Positions 35,197 to 42,763 of a stretch of DNA of 64,000 bases are shown one piece after another. Source of the DNA: Halorhabdus sp. BNX81. Lineage in GTDB: Archaea; Halobacteriota; Halobacteria; Halobacteriales; Haloarculaceae. Numbering within the stretch: position 1 is the first letter of the stretch; each line of letters begins with the position of its first letter. Under the pieces are notes generated by a model. It saw nothing but the letters and a program-made list of their open reading frames with translations. It made no database searches and was not told the DNA's origin. Position numbers and translations under genes: made by a program. Location of the stretch: contig NZ_CP107254.1 of assembly GCF_029229925.1 (NCBI RefSeq), positions 620,001 through 684,000 of the forward strand. Direction: 5' to 3'.

Positions 35197-36357
35197 TCAG
35201 TCGCCGTCCCCGAAACCCACCGCGTCGGCATCTTCCCGTACCCGACGCGTTGCGTCGTCGATGTCGAATTCCCGGACTAGCTCGCCGTCTCGAAGCAGTG
35301 GCTCGAACAACGATTCGGCGTCGGTCGGTCCCGGCCGGCCGGCGAGGCCGACCTCGTGGCCCCCATCGGGCGTCCGATAGACGGCCTTCTTCCCCGAGAG
35401 CTTGCCCCGCTTGGCGACCGGCTCGCCGTCGATCGTGACGATGTCCAGCGCGAAATCCTTCGGATCTGCGTTGGAGACGTACCCGCCGACGCCGAACCCG
35501 TCGGCAACGTCTCGGAGTGCTCGAAGGGTTGTGGGATCGAGCCCGCCGCTGAGGAAGATGCCAACGTCGTCGTGTCCGCGGGCGTCGAGCTCCCACCGGA
35601 CTTCCTGGACGATCCGCCGGAAGTCCCCGCGGCGTGAACTCGTGGTGTCCAGCCGGATGCTGTCGAGGTCGGGAACGGCTTCGACGGCCCGGATCGCCTC
35701 CTCGACTTCGTCGCTGTAGGTGTCACACAGCGCGACCCGCGGGACGTCGGGGCCAACAGCTTCGTCGAAGGCCCGCCAGGCGTCCTCCTGGTTGCCCCGG
35801 CCAAAGCAGATCACCAGCGCGTGGGGCATCGTCCCGCCGGCCTCGTAGTCGATGACTTCGCCGGCGGCGACGTTGGAGATACCGTCGAGCCCCCCGAGTA
35901 GTGCGCTGCGTTCGACCATCGCGCCCAGCGACGGGTGGACGTGCCGGGACCCGAAGCTCAACACTGTCGAGTCGGGAGCGGCCCGGCGAGCACGGAGTGC
36001 GTGTGTCGCGATCCCGGTGGGGTGGGAGAGAAACCCAAGCAGTGACGTTTCCAGGCGAGCGAACTCCCGATACCGGCCTTCGATCCGCATTACCGGCCCG
36101 TGATCGAACAGTTGCCCTTCAGGAAGCGCGTCGACGTCGATGGGGTGTCCTTCCAGCAGGTGGGCGGCGTCTTTCAGCCCGGCGAGGACGGCAAACTCGC
36201 CGGTCGGGAACTGGTCGGCCGAGACCTCCGCGACGACCGACGGATTCTTCCCGGCGTGTTCGAGCGCTTCCATCGTCCGATCGAAGTAGGCGTCGGTCGC
36301 CCGTCCCGCACTGATCGCCTCGGGGCCGACGATGTCGAACGGCGTCTTCTCGGTCAT
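35197..36357 (-). CDS. Nicotinate phosphoribosyltransferase
   Basis: A 386-residue enzyme of the archaeal nicotinate phosphoribosyltransferase type: VVAEVSADQFPTGEFAVLAG near the N-terminus, LLGFLSHPTGIATHALRAR, FGSRHVHPSLGAMVERSALLGGLDGISN and the barrel segment GIFLSGGLDPTTLRAL. It makes nicotinate mononucleotide in NAD salvage. It converges with the kinase gene. A nicotinamidase-like gene lies at 42191, so both salvage steps may be encoded in this region. Confidence 0.88.
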   Translation of the reverse strand: MTEKTPFDIVGPEAISAGRATDAYFDRTMEALEHAGKNPSVVAEVSADQFPTGEFAVLAGLKDAAHLLEGHPIDVDALPEGQLFDHGPVMRIEGRYREFARLETSLLGFLSHPTGIATHALRARRAAPDSTVLSFGSRHVHPSLGAMVERSALLGGLDGISNVAAGEVIDYEAGGTMPHALVICFGRGNQEDAWRAFDEAVGPDVPRVALCDTYSDEVEEAIRAVEAVPDLDSIRLDTTSSRRGDFRRIVQEVRWELDARGHDDVGIFLSGGLDPTTLRALRDVADGFGVGGYVSNADPKDFALDIVTIDGEPVAKRGKLSGKKAVYRTPDGGHEVGLAGRPGPTDAESLFEPLLRDGELVREFDIDDATRRVREDADAVGFGDGD

Positions 36358-36417: not shown

Positions 36418-38160
36418 TTACCGCCGGCGGAGTGCCAGCAGTGCGACGGCGAGAAGACCGATCAGCGCACCCGTGGCGACGAATCCGGGGCCGTTCGTCG
36501 TCGTCGTGTCGGTTGGCTCGTCGGTGTCCGTCACCCCATCGGTGGTCTCGTCGTCCGTCGCCGTCTCGTCGGTAGACTCCGTGGTCTCGGTCTCGCTGTC
36601 GCCTGTGGCCGTCCCGTCGTCGGTCGCCGTTTCCGTCGGCTCTTGGACGTCCGGCGCCATCGCGTGCACTGCTGAGAGTTCCCCGACACTCGGCGCGTTG
36701 ACGATCGTGAACGTGTCGCCGTCCCGATTCAGGTAGAACGCGTCGTTGAACTCCTGGTCGTCGGGAATATGGTAGACGTTCTCGTGACCGTCGACGGATT
36801 CAGCGCCGTGGAACGCAAGGAGTTGCTCGTAGCCCTCCTGGAACTGTCCGGCGTCCGCCGGCGAGTCCCAGAGCATCTTGTAGACGTAGCCAGTCTCGTT
36901 GGTCGCACTCGACTCGTCGGTCACGTATGGCATGAGTTTGTCGCCGTCCCAGCCCGCCGTGTAGGTGTGATTGTAGTCGTACGGGTCGAACTCGTCGACG
37001 CCGCCGCCAACCTGGTTGATGTGGCTATTGTAGGGGATGATCCGATTCGAGAGCGATTCGTAGCTCGGATACCAAAGCGCCACAAACAGCCCTGCCTCAC
37101 CGAAGGAGGCGTGGTTGATACTCCCGTTGATCGCAAGCGGCCGCCAGCGGTCGTCGCTGGTGTCCTCGATCGACACCGGTGTCGGCTCGTCCTCGCCGTA
37201 TTTCTCGGGGTGGATCGTCTGCTCGGTCGAGTTTGGTGGGCTCTCGTAGACCGCGTTCACCGCGTCCCAGCCGTCCGATTCGTGGATGTCCCGCACGAAC
37301 GACGGGCCATCACTGTAGGGCTGGAGCGTGATCTGGAGGAGACCGATGTGGATGTCGGCGGTTGACCCGCCCTGTGATCCCTCGGGCATGATACAGTCGC
37401 CTTGCCATTCACCCTCACACCGTTCCTGGTAGAGGTAATCGACGTAGTTGCCGTCGCCTTCGATGATCCCGTCTTTCGCGTTGTGGAGCTCCTGGGTCGA
37501 CTGGTTGAACGACGAGATGTTGAACCGCTGGTCCTGGAGGGCGTGAAACAGCTCCTGGGCGAGGGTGATCTCGTTCATCTTCGGCGTCGACGTGTTCTCC
37601 GAGACAATCTTGATCTCGCCGGCTGACGGGTCGTAGAACCCGCCCACGCTCCCGGCCTGATTCTGCCCTTGGACGCCGATCGCGTCGGTCGACTCGTTGA
37701 CCATCAACAGCGCCTCGTACTTGACGTTCTGGTGGAGACGGGTCGCGGTGGTCACGTTCGCCGTCTGATTTTCGACCCGCTCGCTGAACTGCTCACGGGA
37801 GATCACTTCGACCGGCGGGGCCTCCTCGAACTCCAGGCGACGGATCTCCTCGACGCGTGCCATCCCGCGGGCGACCACCGCGTCGAGTTCAGAGTCGTTC
37901 AGCCCATCGTCGGGCGTGACGGCAATCGATTCGTTGTACCAGTAGCCGTTCTCCCACCCGAGGACGTCCGACTCGGGATCGGGCGGATGCTGGTCGGCGA
38001 GCGTGGCATCGTCCGTCGTCTTCGAGAGGTGCGTGGTGTTCGGAGGGCTGTCCGTCTGGGCGGTGGCGGCTGCGTTCGGGGACCCGGCCGCCGCGGCGAC
38101 TGGCACGCCGGCCAGTGCGACCGCGAGGACCACGGCGATAATCCGTGTTCGGTGGACCAT
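36418..38160 (-). CDS. Hvo_1808-like surface protein with degenerate zinc-protease motif (paralogue 1)
   Basis: A 580-residue secreted protein. It has a signal peptide (about 1-26), the family motif DVLGWENGYWYNES, a protease-like helix AQELFHALQDQ (202-212) and EGDGNYVDYLYQ 28 residues on. A Thr/Asp/Glu-rich spacer leads to a PGF-CTERM tail (GPGFVATGALIGLLAVALLA plus LRRR). In bacterial relatives this block reads HExxH; here the first His is Gln202. It should be anchored on the surface by archaeosortase. Many NxT/S sequons suggest glycosylation. The function is unknown; it is the last of three tandem paralogues. Confidence 0.82.
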   Translation of the reverse strand: MVHRTRIIAVVLAVALAGVPVAAAAGSPNAAATAQTDSPPNTTHLSKTTDDATLADQHPPDPESDVLGWENGYWYNESIAVTPDDGLNDSELDAVVARGMARVEEIRRLEFEEAPPVEVISREQFSERVENQTANVTTATRLHQNVKYEALLMVNESTDAIGVQGQNQAGSVGGFYDPSAGEIKIVSENTSTPKMNEITLAQELFHALQDQRFNISSFNQSTQELHNAKDGIIEGDGNYVDYLYQERCEGEWQGDCIMPEGSQGGSTADIHIGLLQITLQPYSDGPSFVRDIHESDGWDAVNAVYESPPNSTEQTIHPEKYGEDEPTPVSIEDTSDDRWRPLAINGSINHASFGEAGLFVALWYPSYESLSNRIIPYNSHINQVGGGVDEFDPYDYNHTYTAGWDGDKLMPYVTDESSATNETGYVYKMLWDSPADAGQFQEGYEQLLAFHGAESVDGHENVYHIPDDQEFNDAFYLNRDGDTFTIVNAPSVGELSAVHAMAPDVQEPTETATDDGTATGDSETETTESTDETATDDETTDGVTDTDEPTDTTTTNGPGFVATGALIGLLAVALLALRRR

Positions 38161-38251
38161 ACCCCGTCTGGGGGCGAGTCGGTTAAAAATTCTCGGTGCC
38201 GATGGTCGCCTGACCAGCCCCAGGCGGAATTTCCACCCAGCTTGGCTCGTG

Positions 38252-40087
38252 TCAGTCTGGACGGGTAGCCATCGAGATGAGCGCGACGAGCGCGAGGACT
38301 GCCGCCCCGAAGGTAAATCCGGGGCCCGAGGCCGTCGTCGTCTCGGTCGACTGTTCGTCGGTCACGTTCCGGTTCTCGGTGGCTTCCGACTCGTCTCCGG
38401 TCTCGTCACCGCTCTCTGTCGGGGTATCCGGCTCCTCGATTGCTGTCTCAGTATCCGTGGTCGTGTCGTCTGTCGTCTCATCGGATTCTGTCGTCGATTC
38501 GTCCGCTTCTGTCGTCTCGCCTGCGGGCGTCGACTCTTCGGTTTCAGATGTCGTCTCTTCCGCTTCGGGGGCTGCTCCCTCCCGGACGGCCGAAAGTTCC
38601 TCGACGTTCGGTGCGTTGACGATCGTGAACCGATCGCCGGTCCGATTCAGGTAGAAGGCGTCACTGTACCCACTTTCGTTGGGGATCCGATATGTGTCGT
38701 TGCGTCCATCGACGGACTCCGCGCCGTGGACTGTGAGGAGGCGTTCGTATCCTTCCTGGAACTCTTGGGCGTCTTCCGGCGAGTCCCAGACCGTCTTGTA
38801 GACGTAGCCGGTCTCGTTGGTCCCACTTGAGTCGTCGGGTACGTACGGGATCAGTTTGTCACCATCCCAGCCCGCCGTGTACGTGTGGTTGTAGTTGTAC
38901 CGATCGAAGTCCTGGATCTCGCCATCCGGCCCGTAATTCATGTGGTTCCGCAACGGGATGATCGAGACGGCTCCCTGGGTTTGCATCGCCGGGTACCACA
39001 GCGTCACGTACAGCCCGGCCTCGCCGACGGACGCGTAATTTGGGCCACTCTCAACCGAAAGCGGCCGCCACTCCTCGGCACTTCGATCCGGCACAGTGAC
39101 ATTCGCGGGTGTATCCCTGGGGTACTTTTCGGGGTGAATCGTCTGCTCGGTCGAGGCCGGCACTTCGTCGTAGACCGCGTTCACTGCCTCCCAGCCGCCC
39201 TCCTCACGGAGGTCTTGGACGAACGGCGGGCCATCGATATAGGGCTGTAAATATATCTGTAAGAGCCCATAGTGAAAGTCGGGCGTCGAGGTCGATTCTG
39301 CAGTGTTCGGCATGAGACAGCTGCCGGCCCACTCGTTCTGACAGCGCTGCTGGTAGAGCCGGTCGACGTAGTTGCCATCTCCTTCGACGATACCATCCTT
39401 GGCGTTGTGCGCTTCCCGTGTCGTGTGGTTGAATATTGCCTGCCCGAATTGCTGATGCTGGAGCGCGTGATAGAGCTCCTGGGAGAGGGTGATCTCGTTC
39501 ATCTTCGGTGTCGAGGTGTTCTCCGAGACGATCCTGATTTGTTCCGACACGGGGTCGTAGAATCCGCCGATGCTACTGCCCTGATTGTCGGCCTCTACCG
39601 CCACTGCATCAGTCGACTCGTTGACCATCAACAGGGCTTCGTACGTGACGTTCATCCGCAATCGCTGCGCATCGGTCTTCGTCTCCGTACTGTTGTCGAC
39701 AGTCGCTTCGAATTCCTCTCGACCGATGACCTCGACAGGGACGGTCTCCTCGAATTCGAGGCGTCGGATCTGCTCGACGCGGGCCATACTCCGGTTCACA
39801 ACCGCCCCGAGTTCGGACTCGTTCAGCCCGTCCTCGGGCGTGACGGCAATCGTCTCGTTGTACCAGTAGCCGTTCTCCCACCCGAGGACGTCTGCTGCAG
39901 GGTCCGACGGGTGGGTCTCGTTCGGTTCCGTTTCGTTCTCGCTTGCCTGGGGTACGTCGCCGACTGTGAGTGAGTCACTCGTCGTCGGGGTCGGTGCGTC
40001 GGTCGCTGCCGCCGTCGCGACCGTCACCGGCTGGAGGGCCAATGCGATCACTACGACAGCGGCCATGAGTTTGGTGCGGGAAACCAT
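38252..40087 (-). CDS. Hvo_1808-like surface protein with degenerate zinc-protease motif (paralogue 2)
   Basis: A 611-residue protein co-linear with its neighbours: signal peptide, DVLGWENGYWYNET, SQELYHALQHQ (Gln203, His207), EGDGNYVDRLYQQRC and a long Thr/Glu/Asp spacer of about 85 residues. The C-terminal GPGFTFGAAVLALVALISM keeps the PGF motif and helix but ends in ATRPD, without the basic cluster (RRR or RR) of the other two. That may weaken archaeosortase processing. The family function is unknown. Confidence 0.8.
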   Translation of the reverse strand: MVSRTKLMAAVVVIALALQPVTVATAAATDAPTPTTSDSLTVGDVPQASENETEPNETHPSDPAADVLGWENGYWYNETIAVTPEDGLNESELGAVVNRSMARVEQIRRLEFEETVPVEVIGREEFEATVDNSTETKTDAQRLRMNVTYEALLMVNESTDAVAVEADNQGSSIGGFYDPVSEQIRIVSENTSTPKMNEITLSQELYHALQHQQFGQAIFNHTTREAHNAKDGIVEGDGNYVDRLYQQRCQNEWAGSCLMPNTAESTSTPDFHYGLLQIYLQPYIDGPPFVQDLREEGGWEAVNAVYDEVPASTEQTIHPEKYPRDTPANVTVPDRSAEEWRPLSVESGPNYASVGEAGLYVTLWYPAMQTQGAVSIIPLRNHMNYGPDGEIQDFDRYNYNHTYTAGWDGDKLIPYVPDDSSGTNETGYVYKTVWDSPEDAQEFQEGYERLLTVHGAESVDGRNDTYRIPNESGYSDAFYLNRTGDRFTIVNAPNVEELSAVREGAAPEAEETTSETEESTPAGETTEADESTTESDETTDDTTTDTETAIEEPDTPTESGDETGDESEATENRNVTDEQSTETTTASGPGFTFGAAVLALVALISMATRPD

Positions 40088-40262
40088 GCGATCGACGATC
40101 GATCCCCCGTATACTGATAACCAGTTGCTGAACTACAGAATCTGAAGTCGACTCCGTCCCGTGAAAAGCGGGATCAGCCAATCGATCCGCCAGACCGAAC
40201 TTCCAGCCGGCCTGGTGAGGTATTCACCGAACTCGATACTGATAAAATAGTGGTGGCCCGGA

Positions 40263-42047
40263 TCAGCGACGGCGAGAGACGACCAAAACGAACCCGACGA
40301 GCGCGAGGATTGCCGCCCCGAGCGTGAACCCGGGACCGGAGGCTGTCGTCGTTTCGGTCGACTGCCGGTCGGTTCCGTCCTGGCTTTCGGTCGTCGAATC
40401 GTCCGTCTCGGCCGCCGTGTCAATTTCGGCAGTAGAGACGTCTGTCCCGGTCGCTTCGTCAGTGTCCGTCGTCGAATCGTCCGTTTCGGTCGATCCGTCT
40501 GTCTCGGTCGTCTCCTCGATTTCAGGAGCGGACCCCTCCCGGACCGCCGAGAGTTCCTCGACGCTCGGCGCGTTGACGATCGTGAACGTGTCACCGGTCC
40601 GATTCAGGTAGAACGCGTCGTTGAACTCCTGGCTGTCGGGGATCCGGTAGACGTTCTCGTAGCCTTCGACGGAGACCGCGTCGTGGAACTCGAGGAGTTG
40701 CTCGTACCCGTATTGGAACTCCTCGGCGTCGTCCGGCGAGTCCCAGATCGTCTTGTAGACGTAGCCAGTCTCGTTGGTCGCACTCGACTCGTCGGTCACG
40801 TACGGCACGAGTTTGTCGCCGTCCCAGCCGGCCGTGTACCTGTGATCGTAGTTGTATGGATTGAGTTCGCCGGGCCTGTCGTCATTCACGATATTGGTGT
40901 ACGGGATGATATCGATCGCACCGTTGGTCTCGGAGCCCGGATACCACAGCATCATGTACAACCCTGCCTCGCCGAAGGAGGCGTAGTTGACTGTCCCGTT
41001 GATGTCGAGCGGTCGCCACCGGTCGTCGCTACGGTCCTCGATGGACACTGACGTCGGTGCGTCTTTGCCGTACTTCTCCGGGTGGATCGTCTGCTCGGTC
41101 GATGCGGGTGGGTTGTCGTAGATCGCGTTCACCGCGCTCCATCCACCCAACTCCTGGATGTCCCGGACGAACGCCGGACCGTCGCTGTAGGGCTGATACG
41201 TGAGCATCTGGAGGCCGACGTGGGTGTCGACGTCGGCGTTCGATCCGCTTTGTGATCGCTCGGGCATGATGCAGGTTCCGTTCCACTCGTTCTCACACCG
41301 CTTCTGGTAGAGATAATCGACGTAGTTGGCGTCGCCCTCGACGATGCCATGTCTGGCTCTGGTTTCTTCCGTGGTGGTCGGGTTACCTACCGAGGAGAGA
41401 TTGAACTGCTGATCCTGGAGGGCGTGGAACAGTTCCTGTGAGAGGACGATCTCGTCCATCTTCGGCGTCGTGGCGTTCTCGGAGATGATCTTGATCTCTT
41501 CGTCGCCGTAGTATCCGAGCCAGGCGGCCCGGTTCTGCTCCGCATCGCGGATCACATTGGCCGACTCGTTGACCATGAACAACGCCTCAAACATGGTGTT
41601 CGCGCGCAAGCGCCGTGCGGTAGTCGCGTTCGACTGGTTCACGACCTGCTCGCTGTGTTCCTCTCGGGAGATCACTTCGACCGGGATCGTCTCCTCGAAT
41701 TCGAGTTGTCGGACCTGCTCGACGCGGGCCATGCTCCGGGCCACAACCGCGTCGAGTTCCGACTCGTTCAACCCGTCCTCGGGTGTGACGGAAATCGACT
41801 CGTTGTACCAGTAGCCGTTCTCCCACCCGAGGACGTCTTTCTCGGGGTCCGGCGGATGCGTCTCGTTCGTTTCTGTCCCGTTCGTCTCCGTTTCGTCGTG
41901 TGTCGTCTCGGGGACGTCACCGACTGAGAGTGGGTCACTCGCTGTCGGCGTCGATACGTCGGTCGCTGTCGCCGTCGCGATCGTCACGGGCTGGAGGGCC
42001 AGTGCGACGACGACGATAGCCGCCATGATCTTGGTGCGGGAGACCAT
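40263..42047 (-). CDS. Hvo_1808-like surface protein with degenerate zinc-protease motif (paralogue 3)
   Basis: A 594-residue protein, closest in its N-terminus to paralogue 2 (both open MVSRTK...). It has a signal peptide, DVLGWENGYWYNES, SQELFHALQDQ (Gln204, His208), EGDANYVDYLYQKRC, a Thr/Asp/Glu-rich spacer and a full PGF-CTERM tail (GPGFTLGAAILALVGFVLVV plus SRRR). The three genes are separated by 91 and 175 nt and may be transcribed separately. Confidence 0.82.
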   Translation of the reverse strand: MVSRTKIMAAIVVVALALQPVTIATATATDVSTPTASDPLSVGDVPETTHDETETNGTETNETHPPDPEKDVLGWENGYWYNESISVTPEDGLNESELDAVVARSMARVEQVRQLEFEETIPVEVISREEHSEQVVNQSNATTARRLRANTMFEALFMVNESANVIRDAEQNRAAWLGYYGDEEIKIISENATTPKMDEIVLSQELFHALQDQQFNLSSVGNPTTTEETRARHGIVEGDANYVDYLYQKRCENEWNGTCIMPERSQSGSNADVDTHVGLQMLTYQPYSDGPAFVRDIQELGGWSAVNAIYDNPPASTEQTIHPEKYGKDAPTSVSIEDRSDDRWRPLDINGTVNYASFGEAGLYMMLWYPGSETNGAIDIIPYTNIVNDDRPGELNPYNYDHRYTAGWDGDKLVPYVTDESSATNETGYVYKTIWDSPDDAEEFQYGYEQLLEFHDAVSVEGYENVYRIPDSQEFNDAFYLNRTGDTFTIVNAPSVEELSAVREGSAPEIEETTETDGSTETDDSTTDTDEATGTDVSTAEIDTAAETDDSTTESQDGTDRQSTETTTASGPGFTLGAAILALVGFVLVVSRRR

Positions 42048-42190: not shown

Positions 42191-42763
42191 ATGAAATTCG
42201 ATCCGGACACGACCGCTGTCGTCGTCGTGGACATGCAAAACGGCTTCTGTCATCAGGAGGGGAGTCTCTACGCACCGCCGAGCGAAGACGCGGTCGACCC
42301 CTGCGTCGAACTGGTCGATCGTGCGGGTGAAATGGGCGCGTCGGTCGTCTACACCCGCGACGTTCACACCGACGAGCAGTTCGAAGACGCCCACTACTAC
42401 GACGAGTTCGACCGGTGGGGCGAACACGTCCGCGAGGGGACCTGGGACGCCGAACTCGTCGCGAAGCTCAAATCCCGCGACGCCGATCTGATCGTCGAGA
42501 AACACACCTACGACGCCTTCCACGAGACCCAACTCGACGGGTGGCTCAGGGCCCACGGGATCGACGACCTGCTGATCTGTGGGACGCTGGCGAACGTCTG
42601 CGTCCTCCATACGGCCGCCAGCGCCGGACTCCGGGATTACCGCCCGGTCCTCGTCGAGGACGCCGTGGGCTACCTCGAGGAAGACCATCGAGAGTACGCC
42701 CTAGAGCACGCCGACTGGCTGTTCGGCGAGGTAATGGATCGCGAGTCGGTCGAATTCGCCTGA
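42191..42763 (+). CDS. Nicotinamidase/isochorismatase-family cysteine hydrolase
   Basis: A 190-residue hydrolase. The triad is visible: Asp in VVVDMQNGF, Lys in VEKHTYDAF and Cys in GTLANVCVLHTA. Metal-type residues occur in TRDVHTDEQF and GEHVREG, which favours nicotinamidase activity over isochorismatase. It would convert nicotinamide to nicotinate, the substrate of the phosphoribosyltransferase at 35197. The gene is followed by a GNAT gene overlapping by 1 nt. Confidence 0.83.
   Translation: MKFDPDTTAVVVVDMQNGFCHQEGSLYAPPSEDAVDPCVELVDRAGEMGASVVYTRDVHTDEQFEDAHYYDEFDRWGEHVREGTWDAELVAKLKSRDADLIVEKHTYDAFHETQLDGWLRAHGIDDLLICGTLANVCVLHTAASAGLRDYRPVLVEDAVGYLEEDHREYALEHADWLFGEVMDRESVEFA

Follow-up and report, generated by a model that had tools for sequence, protein, structure and literature searches.

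Repeated exchange of histidine and glutamine at the first metal-ligand position of a zincin-like surface protein family in Halobacteria

Three adjacent genes of Halorhabdus sp. BNX81 encode surface proteins in which the first histidine of a zincin-type HExxH motif is replaced by glutamine. The genes are arranged in tandem on the minus strand of the stretch of DNA analysed here (64,000 nucleotides, hereafter the window), and the coordinates given below are positions in the window unless a genome is named. Gene 1 (36418..38160, 580 amino acids), gene 2 (38252..40087, 611 amino acids) and gene 3 (40263..42047, 594 amino acids) each encode an Hvo_1808-family surface protein of the QExxH type. Family membership was assessed with the NCBIfam profile NF038145, which has a cut-off of 200 bits. 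The query proteins, used without their start codon, scored 579.7 bits (E value 4.6e-174), 562 bits (1.1e-168) and 551.9 bits (1.2e-165) for genes 1 to 3, a range of 552-580 bits, and positions 1-432 of the 432 in the profile were covered. Each protein consists of a signal-peptide-like start (judged by eye), a conserved region of ~440 residues, a linker rich in Thr, Glu and Asp, and a C-terminal PGF-like anchor. The anchor of gene 1 (36421..36504, minus strand) scored 33.2 bits with the PGF-CTERM model (TIGR04126, cut-off 24.5 bits), and those of genes 2 and 3 scored below the cut-off (18.8 and 20.1 bits).

All three proteins carry (A/S)QEL(F/Y)HALQ and, downstream, EGD(G/A)NYVD. From composition alone ~5e-9 occurrences of the nine-residue motif would be expected per 600 residues, so the motif is not due to chance. 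The glutamine at the first ligand position is encoded by CAG in each gene (Gln202 of gene 1, 37555..37557; Gln203 of gene 2, 39479..39481; Gln204 of gene 3, 41436..41438; all on the minus strand). In genes 1, 2 and 3, respectively, the second His is residue 206, 207 and 208; the Glu that follows it is residue 234, 235 and 237, which gives spacings of 28, 28 and 29 residues. In gene 1 these second and third ligand positions are His206 (37543..37545, minus strand) and Glu234 (37459..37461, minus strand). A sequence-only reading of this DNA had described the two motifs as common to the three paralogues, and the codons and spacings confirm this description.

Gluzincins bind their metal through HExxH and a Glu on a later helix. 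The AlphaFold2 model of residues 60-498 of gene 1 had a predicted local distance difference test score (pLDDT) of 96.1 and a predicted template modelling score (pTM) of 0.93; the first 269 residues of this region, modelled alone, had a pLDDT of 94.3 and a pTM of 0.91. The model comprises a zincin-like catalytic domain (residues ~60-326; 37183..37983, minus strand) and a C-terminal domain (residues ~327-498; 36667..37182, minus strand; mean pLDDT 96.1). Gln202, Glu203 and His206 lie on one helix (model residues 138-154) and Glu234 lies on the next (model residues 164-190), as expected of the third gluzincin ligand, and by homology Gln202, His206 and Glu234 would converge on one site. The top structure in the Foldseek search was 3cmn, with a probability of 1.00 and E values of 1.7e-3 and 2.2e-2. 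For the whole model, VIA-align with 3cmn gave Z 10.1 over 206 residues (root-mean-square deviation 4.9); the domain alone gave Z 11.3 over 221 residues (5.4). M1 aminopeptidases, M9 collagenases and M4 and M32 peptidases followed at Z ~5-7, a range (Z < 8) in which a match possibly reflects just a common arrangement. In the domain search, all 50 listed rows were zincin peptidases or zincin-like proteins, as judged by their titles and by recall. The family sequence profile weakly matched 3cmn (E value 0.18) and IrrE (0.89-1.3). With Pfam, the three window proteins gave only sub-threshold matches (M76, 0.05; DUF6782, 0.061; M78, 0.16), and among 21 family members DUF6782, a 'putative metallopeptidase', was matched in 15 (best 2.3e-6), M76 in 12 and M78 in nine. 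According to these models, the Hvo_1808 family is a family with the zincin fold. The sequence-only reading had proposed a gluzincin-like site with Gln in place of the first His and a profile search for a peptidase relation; the profile and fold searches found such a relation, and the proposed site is supported by the matches to zincins. The HExxH motif itself is missing from the three window proteins and is present in 114 of the 186 aligned relatives described below.

The best structural match, 3cmn, belongs to Zincin_2/DUF2342 (PF10103, TIGR03883). It has the HExxH plan, the Glu of an EG motif and a 'YxxGxxF' stretch in common with the window family, and its sequence contains HEMTH and the Glu of EGY. 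However, the two are only 14-18% identical, and the distance from the second His to the Glu, as read from the alignment, is ~77 residues in 3cmn against 28 in the window family. PF10103 was absent from the Pfam matches of the three window proteins up to an E value of 10, and among the 21 family members it matched one, at an E value of 0.26 that does not reach the Pfam gathering cut-off. A true Zincin_2 protein with HEVTH is encoded in the same genome as the window (locus L143, G000 922682-923557). The M1, M4 and M9 peptidases (aminopeptidase N, thermolysin and clostridial collagenase) share the fold class and the arrangement of ligands with the window family (Z ~6-7), but the window proteins differ from them in the replaced first His and in a second domain that matched other folds in these searches. 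The C-terminal half resembles the extracellular domain of PknH (4esq, Z 6.5), TiME (7cu8, Z 6.3) and RseB (Z 5.0); with Z < 8, these resemblances are leads only.

NF038145 matched 390 of the 391 Halobacteria genomes searched. Of the 14 named control genomes, Haloferax volcanii alone had a match. The single Halobacteria genome with no match (G128) is nevertheless rated 98% complete. After merging of 29 near-identical or overlapping frames, the 218 matching frames gave 189, and removal of three pieces shorter than 330 amino acids (L071 and two of L109) left 186 aligned members. These members are not a frequency sample: loci L060-L067 and most of L103-L142 were chosen by their His or Gln pattern, and L073-L102 were included because neither DNA pattern matched in their genomes. 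At the first ligand position 114 members have His and 72 have Gln, and no other residue occurs; Glu203, His206 and Glu234 are retained in all 186. As a control, 28 genomes that matched neither DNA pattern were searched again with the profile, and the family was found in 27. This search gave 30 loci (L073-L102) from 31 rows above the cut-off, one of which has no locus; the Gln rows of the tree include none of these loci. Exact pattern matching placed the Gln form in 60 of the 391 genomes (18 of 86 genera) and the His form in 349 (74 genera). His is likely to be the ancestral state of this position, because all 21 distant homologues (from outside Halobacteria, and remote paralogues) have HExxH with the third Glu. 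Gln had initially been taken as a property of the family as such; this view was not borne out, since the His form predominates and looks ancestral.

In each of four genomes (G001, G002, G007 and G018) the family is represented by one match, of the QExxH type, and the HExxH pattern by none; by pattern matches alone, 14 of the 60 Gln genomes have no His-type match. Remote HExxH paralogues are present in several Halobacteria, and one of them (L070, G000 ~995665-996663; 21% identity) lies elsewhere in the genome of the window. Among both the His- and the Gln-types, some members have a lipobox-like and others a PGF-CTERM-like anchor (loci L001-L142, simple regular expressions). HVO_1808, which has a lipobox, has been studied as a putative substrate of the Sec pathway, and its Cys-to-Ser form was still processed (PMC2945643, accessible part). 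This was the sole paper naming HVO_1808 that our literature search found, and its accessible part gives no activity. Unlike the window proteins, HVO_1808 has a lipobox instead of a PGF-CTERM-like end, and the Haloferax members in the set (L048, L051, L052 and L055) have HExxH in both genes of the array. A second, separate Gln group with QELYHAYQ (hereafter the HAYQ group) comprises L103-L109 (in G233, G328, G324, G127, G053, G031 and G327) and lies outside the usual neighbourhood. The Gln-type gene of G327 (L109, 2190-3694) is split over two frames and may be a pseudogene or reflect a sequencing error.

The history of the exchange was examined in trees built with the motif columns removed. The FastTree tree required eight H/Q changes, all forced by starred branches, and 11 changes were required when the Glu-helix segment was removed as well. 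A tree of 69 rows under the LG+C20 mixture model required ten changes, of which seven were forced. A single clade of all Gln rows (49 versus 20 rows) was rejected, with a log-likelihood lower by 485 and an approximately unbiased test value (p-AU) of 1.6e-122, and so was a single clade of the main Gln rows, with the HAYQ group excluded (46 versus 23 rows; p-AU 1.9e-4); these p-AU values are generous, because the groups had been defined by trait with the tree already in view. The clearest case is found in Haladaptatus, where L038 (Gln, from Haladaptatus halobius) and L058 (His, from H. salinisoli) are sisters and ~84% identical over 387 columns. On these trees the exchange is a repeated one, and in the sample it involves no residues other than His and Gln.

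Some of the changes appear to run in the opposite direction. Eight His rows (L139; L058; L041 and L021; L040; L002, L006 and L019) lie within the Gln clade of the first tree. His226 is present in 59 of 72 Gln-types and in only five of 114 His-types, and these five (L021, L040, L041, L058 and L139) are all inside that clade. Because five of the eight rows thus keep a residue that is elsewhere confined to Gln-types, they may well descend from Gln ancestors, and we read their His226 as an inherited mark of this ancestry. Several deeper forks are open in the mixture-model tree, which makes the count of reversals uncertain; the L038/L058 pair and the L001/L002 group are starred. Returns from Gln to His have probably occurred.

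Gene conversion or transfer between paralogues might also have produced the scattered pattern of His and Gln without repeated switching. The adjacency of the paralogues makes conversion easy, and the trees contain long branches and open forks. However, the motif columns were left out of the trees and a single Gln clade was rejected. L038 and L058 differ in segments 198-205 and 237-241, and RERHNAIDG, which lies between these segments, is unchanged. Among the matches listed, the nearest DNA relatives of the segment of L058 are all Gln-type (L022, L015 and L018), as are those of the segment of L139 (L015, L039 and L014). On the other hand, the nearest outside relative of the segment of L002 and L006 is a His-type (L043), and the loci otherwise nearest to L040, L041 and L021 (L131 and L010) hold both types, so that either type may have been the donor there. 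The sequence comparisons argue against conversion most clearly for L058 and L139; for L040, L041, L021, L002 and L006 it may have played a part. Overall, we consider it improbable that conversion or transfer explains the pattern.

Residues that change together with the ligand were sought in 156 columns over nine independent pairs on starred branches; because these data also served to choose the residue sets, the p-values err on the optimistic side. Five residues went with Gln and ranked directly below the switch itself: Asp241 (8.0 pairs in the same way, 0 in the opposite), Phe/Tyr205 (7.9/0), Ile/Val198 (7.9/0), Gly237 (7.4/0) and Ser201 (6.6/0). Column 95 came next (6.4). Three of the positions (198, 201 and 205) belong to the HExxH helix and the other two (237 and 241) to the Glu helix, and this clustering on the two ligand helices is a stronger argument than the p-values of the coupling. 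Asn238 is found in 72 of 72 Gln-types and 39 of 114 His-types and followed the switch in 4.9 of the nine pairs, which is not significant. Residue 238, four after the third Glu, is at the place of the second-shell Asp170 of thermolysin. In a screen for new His, Cys, Asp or Glu residues, only Asp241 was both near-invariant in Gln-types (71 of 72) and coupled, which makes it a candidate second-shell or ligand residue. In the HAYQ group, Ala237 is kept, yet Tyr205 and Asp241 are present (L109 was not aligned).

The conserved part of the protein has not decayed in the Gln form. Forty-three columns other than 202 are at least 95% conserved in His-types, and 40 of them have the same residue in at least 95% of Gln-types. 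The three exceptions are the coupled 237, W404 (88%) and A474 (94%). All 72 Gln-types keep the catalytic Glu203, a general base for which a scaffold has no obvious use. Five exits from CAG that all led to His would have a probability of ~0.002 if codon changes were equally likely, a rough value that depends on the number of reversals. By family models, predicted fold and homology, the window genes encode surface-anchored members of the Hvo_1808 family with a gluzincin-type zincin domain and a second C-terminal domain. They are part of a sub-line whose first metal-binding His has given way to Gln. In this sub-line the metal might still be held by Gln202, His206 and Glu234, with the first and second shells repacked and Glu203 still serving as the general base. 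The Gln-type protein would then be a working metallohydrolase, most simply an extracellular peptidase, with an altered metal preference or rate. We give this explanation as a whole, a repeatedly switched metal site that in the Gln form is retuned and still works, about an even chance of being correct. The more specific proposal, that the ligand switch is reversible and tied to a network of five residues, and that the Gln state is an enzyme with another metal preference (e.g. copper) and no pseudoenzyme, is held tentatively, at somewhat below an even chance.

The Gln form might instead be a catalytically dead pseudo-peptidase that acts as a binding or regulatory partner of an adjacent His-type or as an adhesive scaffold, with the site residues kept for folding or ligand binding. 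A Gln-type stands beside a His-type in the same array at 40 loci (overlapping loci counted). In the first tree a clade of 48 His rows (support 56 only), which includes most of the second-position genes, never switches. According to the accessible part of a survey of zincins, substituted HExxH sites are common (PMC3650047). Nevertheless, the retained general base, the lack of relaxation in the remaining conserved columns and the apparent His reversions within the Gln clade argue against a dead protein, as do the genomes in which a Gln-type is the sole family member. The array in the window itself is of the type QQQ, with no full-length His-type adjoining it and only the distant L070 elsewhere in the genome. 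We consider the pseudo-peptidase possible but rather doubtful, and modestly favour a working, retuned site over an inactive scaffold. Of the two options left by the sequence-only reading, the altered metal site is therefore the better one, and the inactive binding scaffold is weakened by the absence of decay in conserved columns and by the apparent reversions.

Several points weigh against a working Gln form. Gln is, to our knowledge, rarely a zinc ligand. His226 was considered as a replacement ligand and rejected, as it did not switch with Gln over the independent pairs (2.8 of nine). L110 is an exception to the coupling, since it combines Gln with Gly205, Met237 and Glu241, and the HAYQ group departs from it in its Ala237. 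Arrays of several genes that include a Gln gene mostly contain a His gene as well (QH at 33 loci, HQH at four and HQQ at three, overlapping loci included), as would suit a partner or a pseudoenzyme. The closest structure, 3cmn, is annotated just as a 'putative hydrolase'. Finally, substituted HExxH sites in zincins are usually taken as inactive in the part of the survey accessible to us (PMC3650047). The metal favoured by the Gln form, its substrate and its activity are put forward here as predictions from sequence.

A precedent for an active Gln-substituted zincin is VMP3 of Volvox carteri, which has QEXXHXXGXXH and prefers copper according to Heitzer and Hallmann 2002, as cited in the accessible part of PMC7717551; computations reported there indicate that MMP8 comes to favour Cu(II) when its corresponding His is changed to Gln. 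VMP3 resembles the window family in being an extracellular zincin with a natural Gln for the first His, and it is reported to be active with copper. It is of a different fold class, however, and its motif is not found in gene 1, where ALQDQR follows QELFH with no G at +3 and no H at +6. The window family is also archaeal, has Glu at the third ligand position and switches between His and Gln. The part of PMC3650047 accessible to us lists H-to-Q among the single-base changes of HExxH sites and suggests that the CLCAs have lost the site five times independently. The CLCAs are also zincins with a site altered several times independently. In contrast to the Hvo_1808 family, with only Gln, coupled residues and apparent reversals, their substitutions include Arg and are taken as loss (PMC3650047, same part). 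An unrelated di-iron QExxH motif is described in the accessible part of PMC12101540.

In the literature searched, which included few subscription papers, we found no report that the Hvo_1808 family switches between Gln and His, nor any of a QExxH enzyme among the gluzincins. If the Gln state works, it would be the first such enzyme known to us. Substituted HExxH sites are usually dismissed as dead, and here the ligand appears to flip many times within one archaeal class, together with a small set of coupled residues and with the other site residues kept. Natural His/Gln pairs that are ~84% identical would allow one to test how such a site copes with a Gln ligand or puts it to use. The sole experimental mention found for this near-universal family concerns export and anchoring, and assigning an activity to it would fill a gap in haloarchaeal cell-surface biology.

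The sequence-only reading had also taken the tandem triplication as a sign of diversification of surface ligands. This idea found no specific support, and arrays of two or three genes are common in the family. The array has conserved neighbours. A nicotinate phosphoribosyltransferase gene (35197..36357, minus strand; NF006415, 515 bits, cut-off 243) lies 60 bases downstream of gene 1 and is co-directional with it. An isochorismatase-fold hydrolase gene (42191..42763, plus strand) is divergent from gene 3. Every NCBIfam score of the hydrolase is below the cut-off (43 bits against 174 for the nicotinamidase model), and the label 'nicotinamidase-like' would follow from its fold family and its neighbour gene only. 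It is conceivable that the pocket is re-used for another reaction, e.g. on pyridine nucleotides, and tuned by the His/Gln state, since both flanking genes are present at 60 of 142 loci. Conserved gene order alone is no proof of shared function, however, and the H, E, E triad that a peptidase-type metal site requires is kept. We also know of no enzymatic link between a zincin site and pyridine nucleotides, and regard this possibility as very unlikely. The set of 142 loci, each with a family match, contains some overlapping loci and off-site paralogues. In this set, the upstream hydrolase was present in 99 of 131 testable loci, with divergent orientation in 98 of the 99, and the downstream phosphoribosyltransferase in 69 of 109 testable loci, co-directional in all 69.

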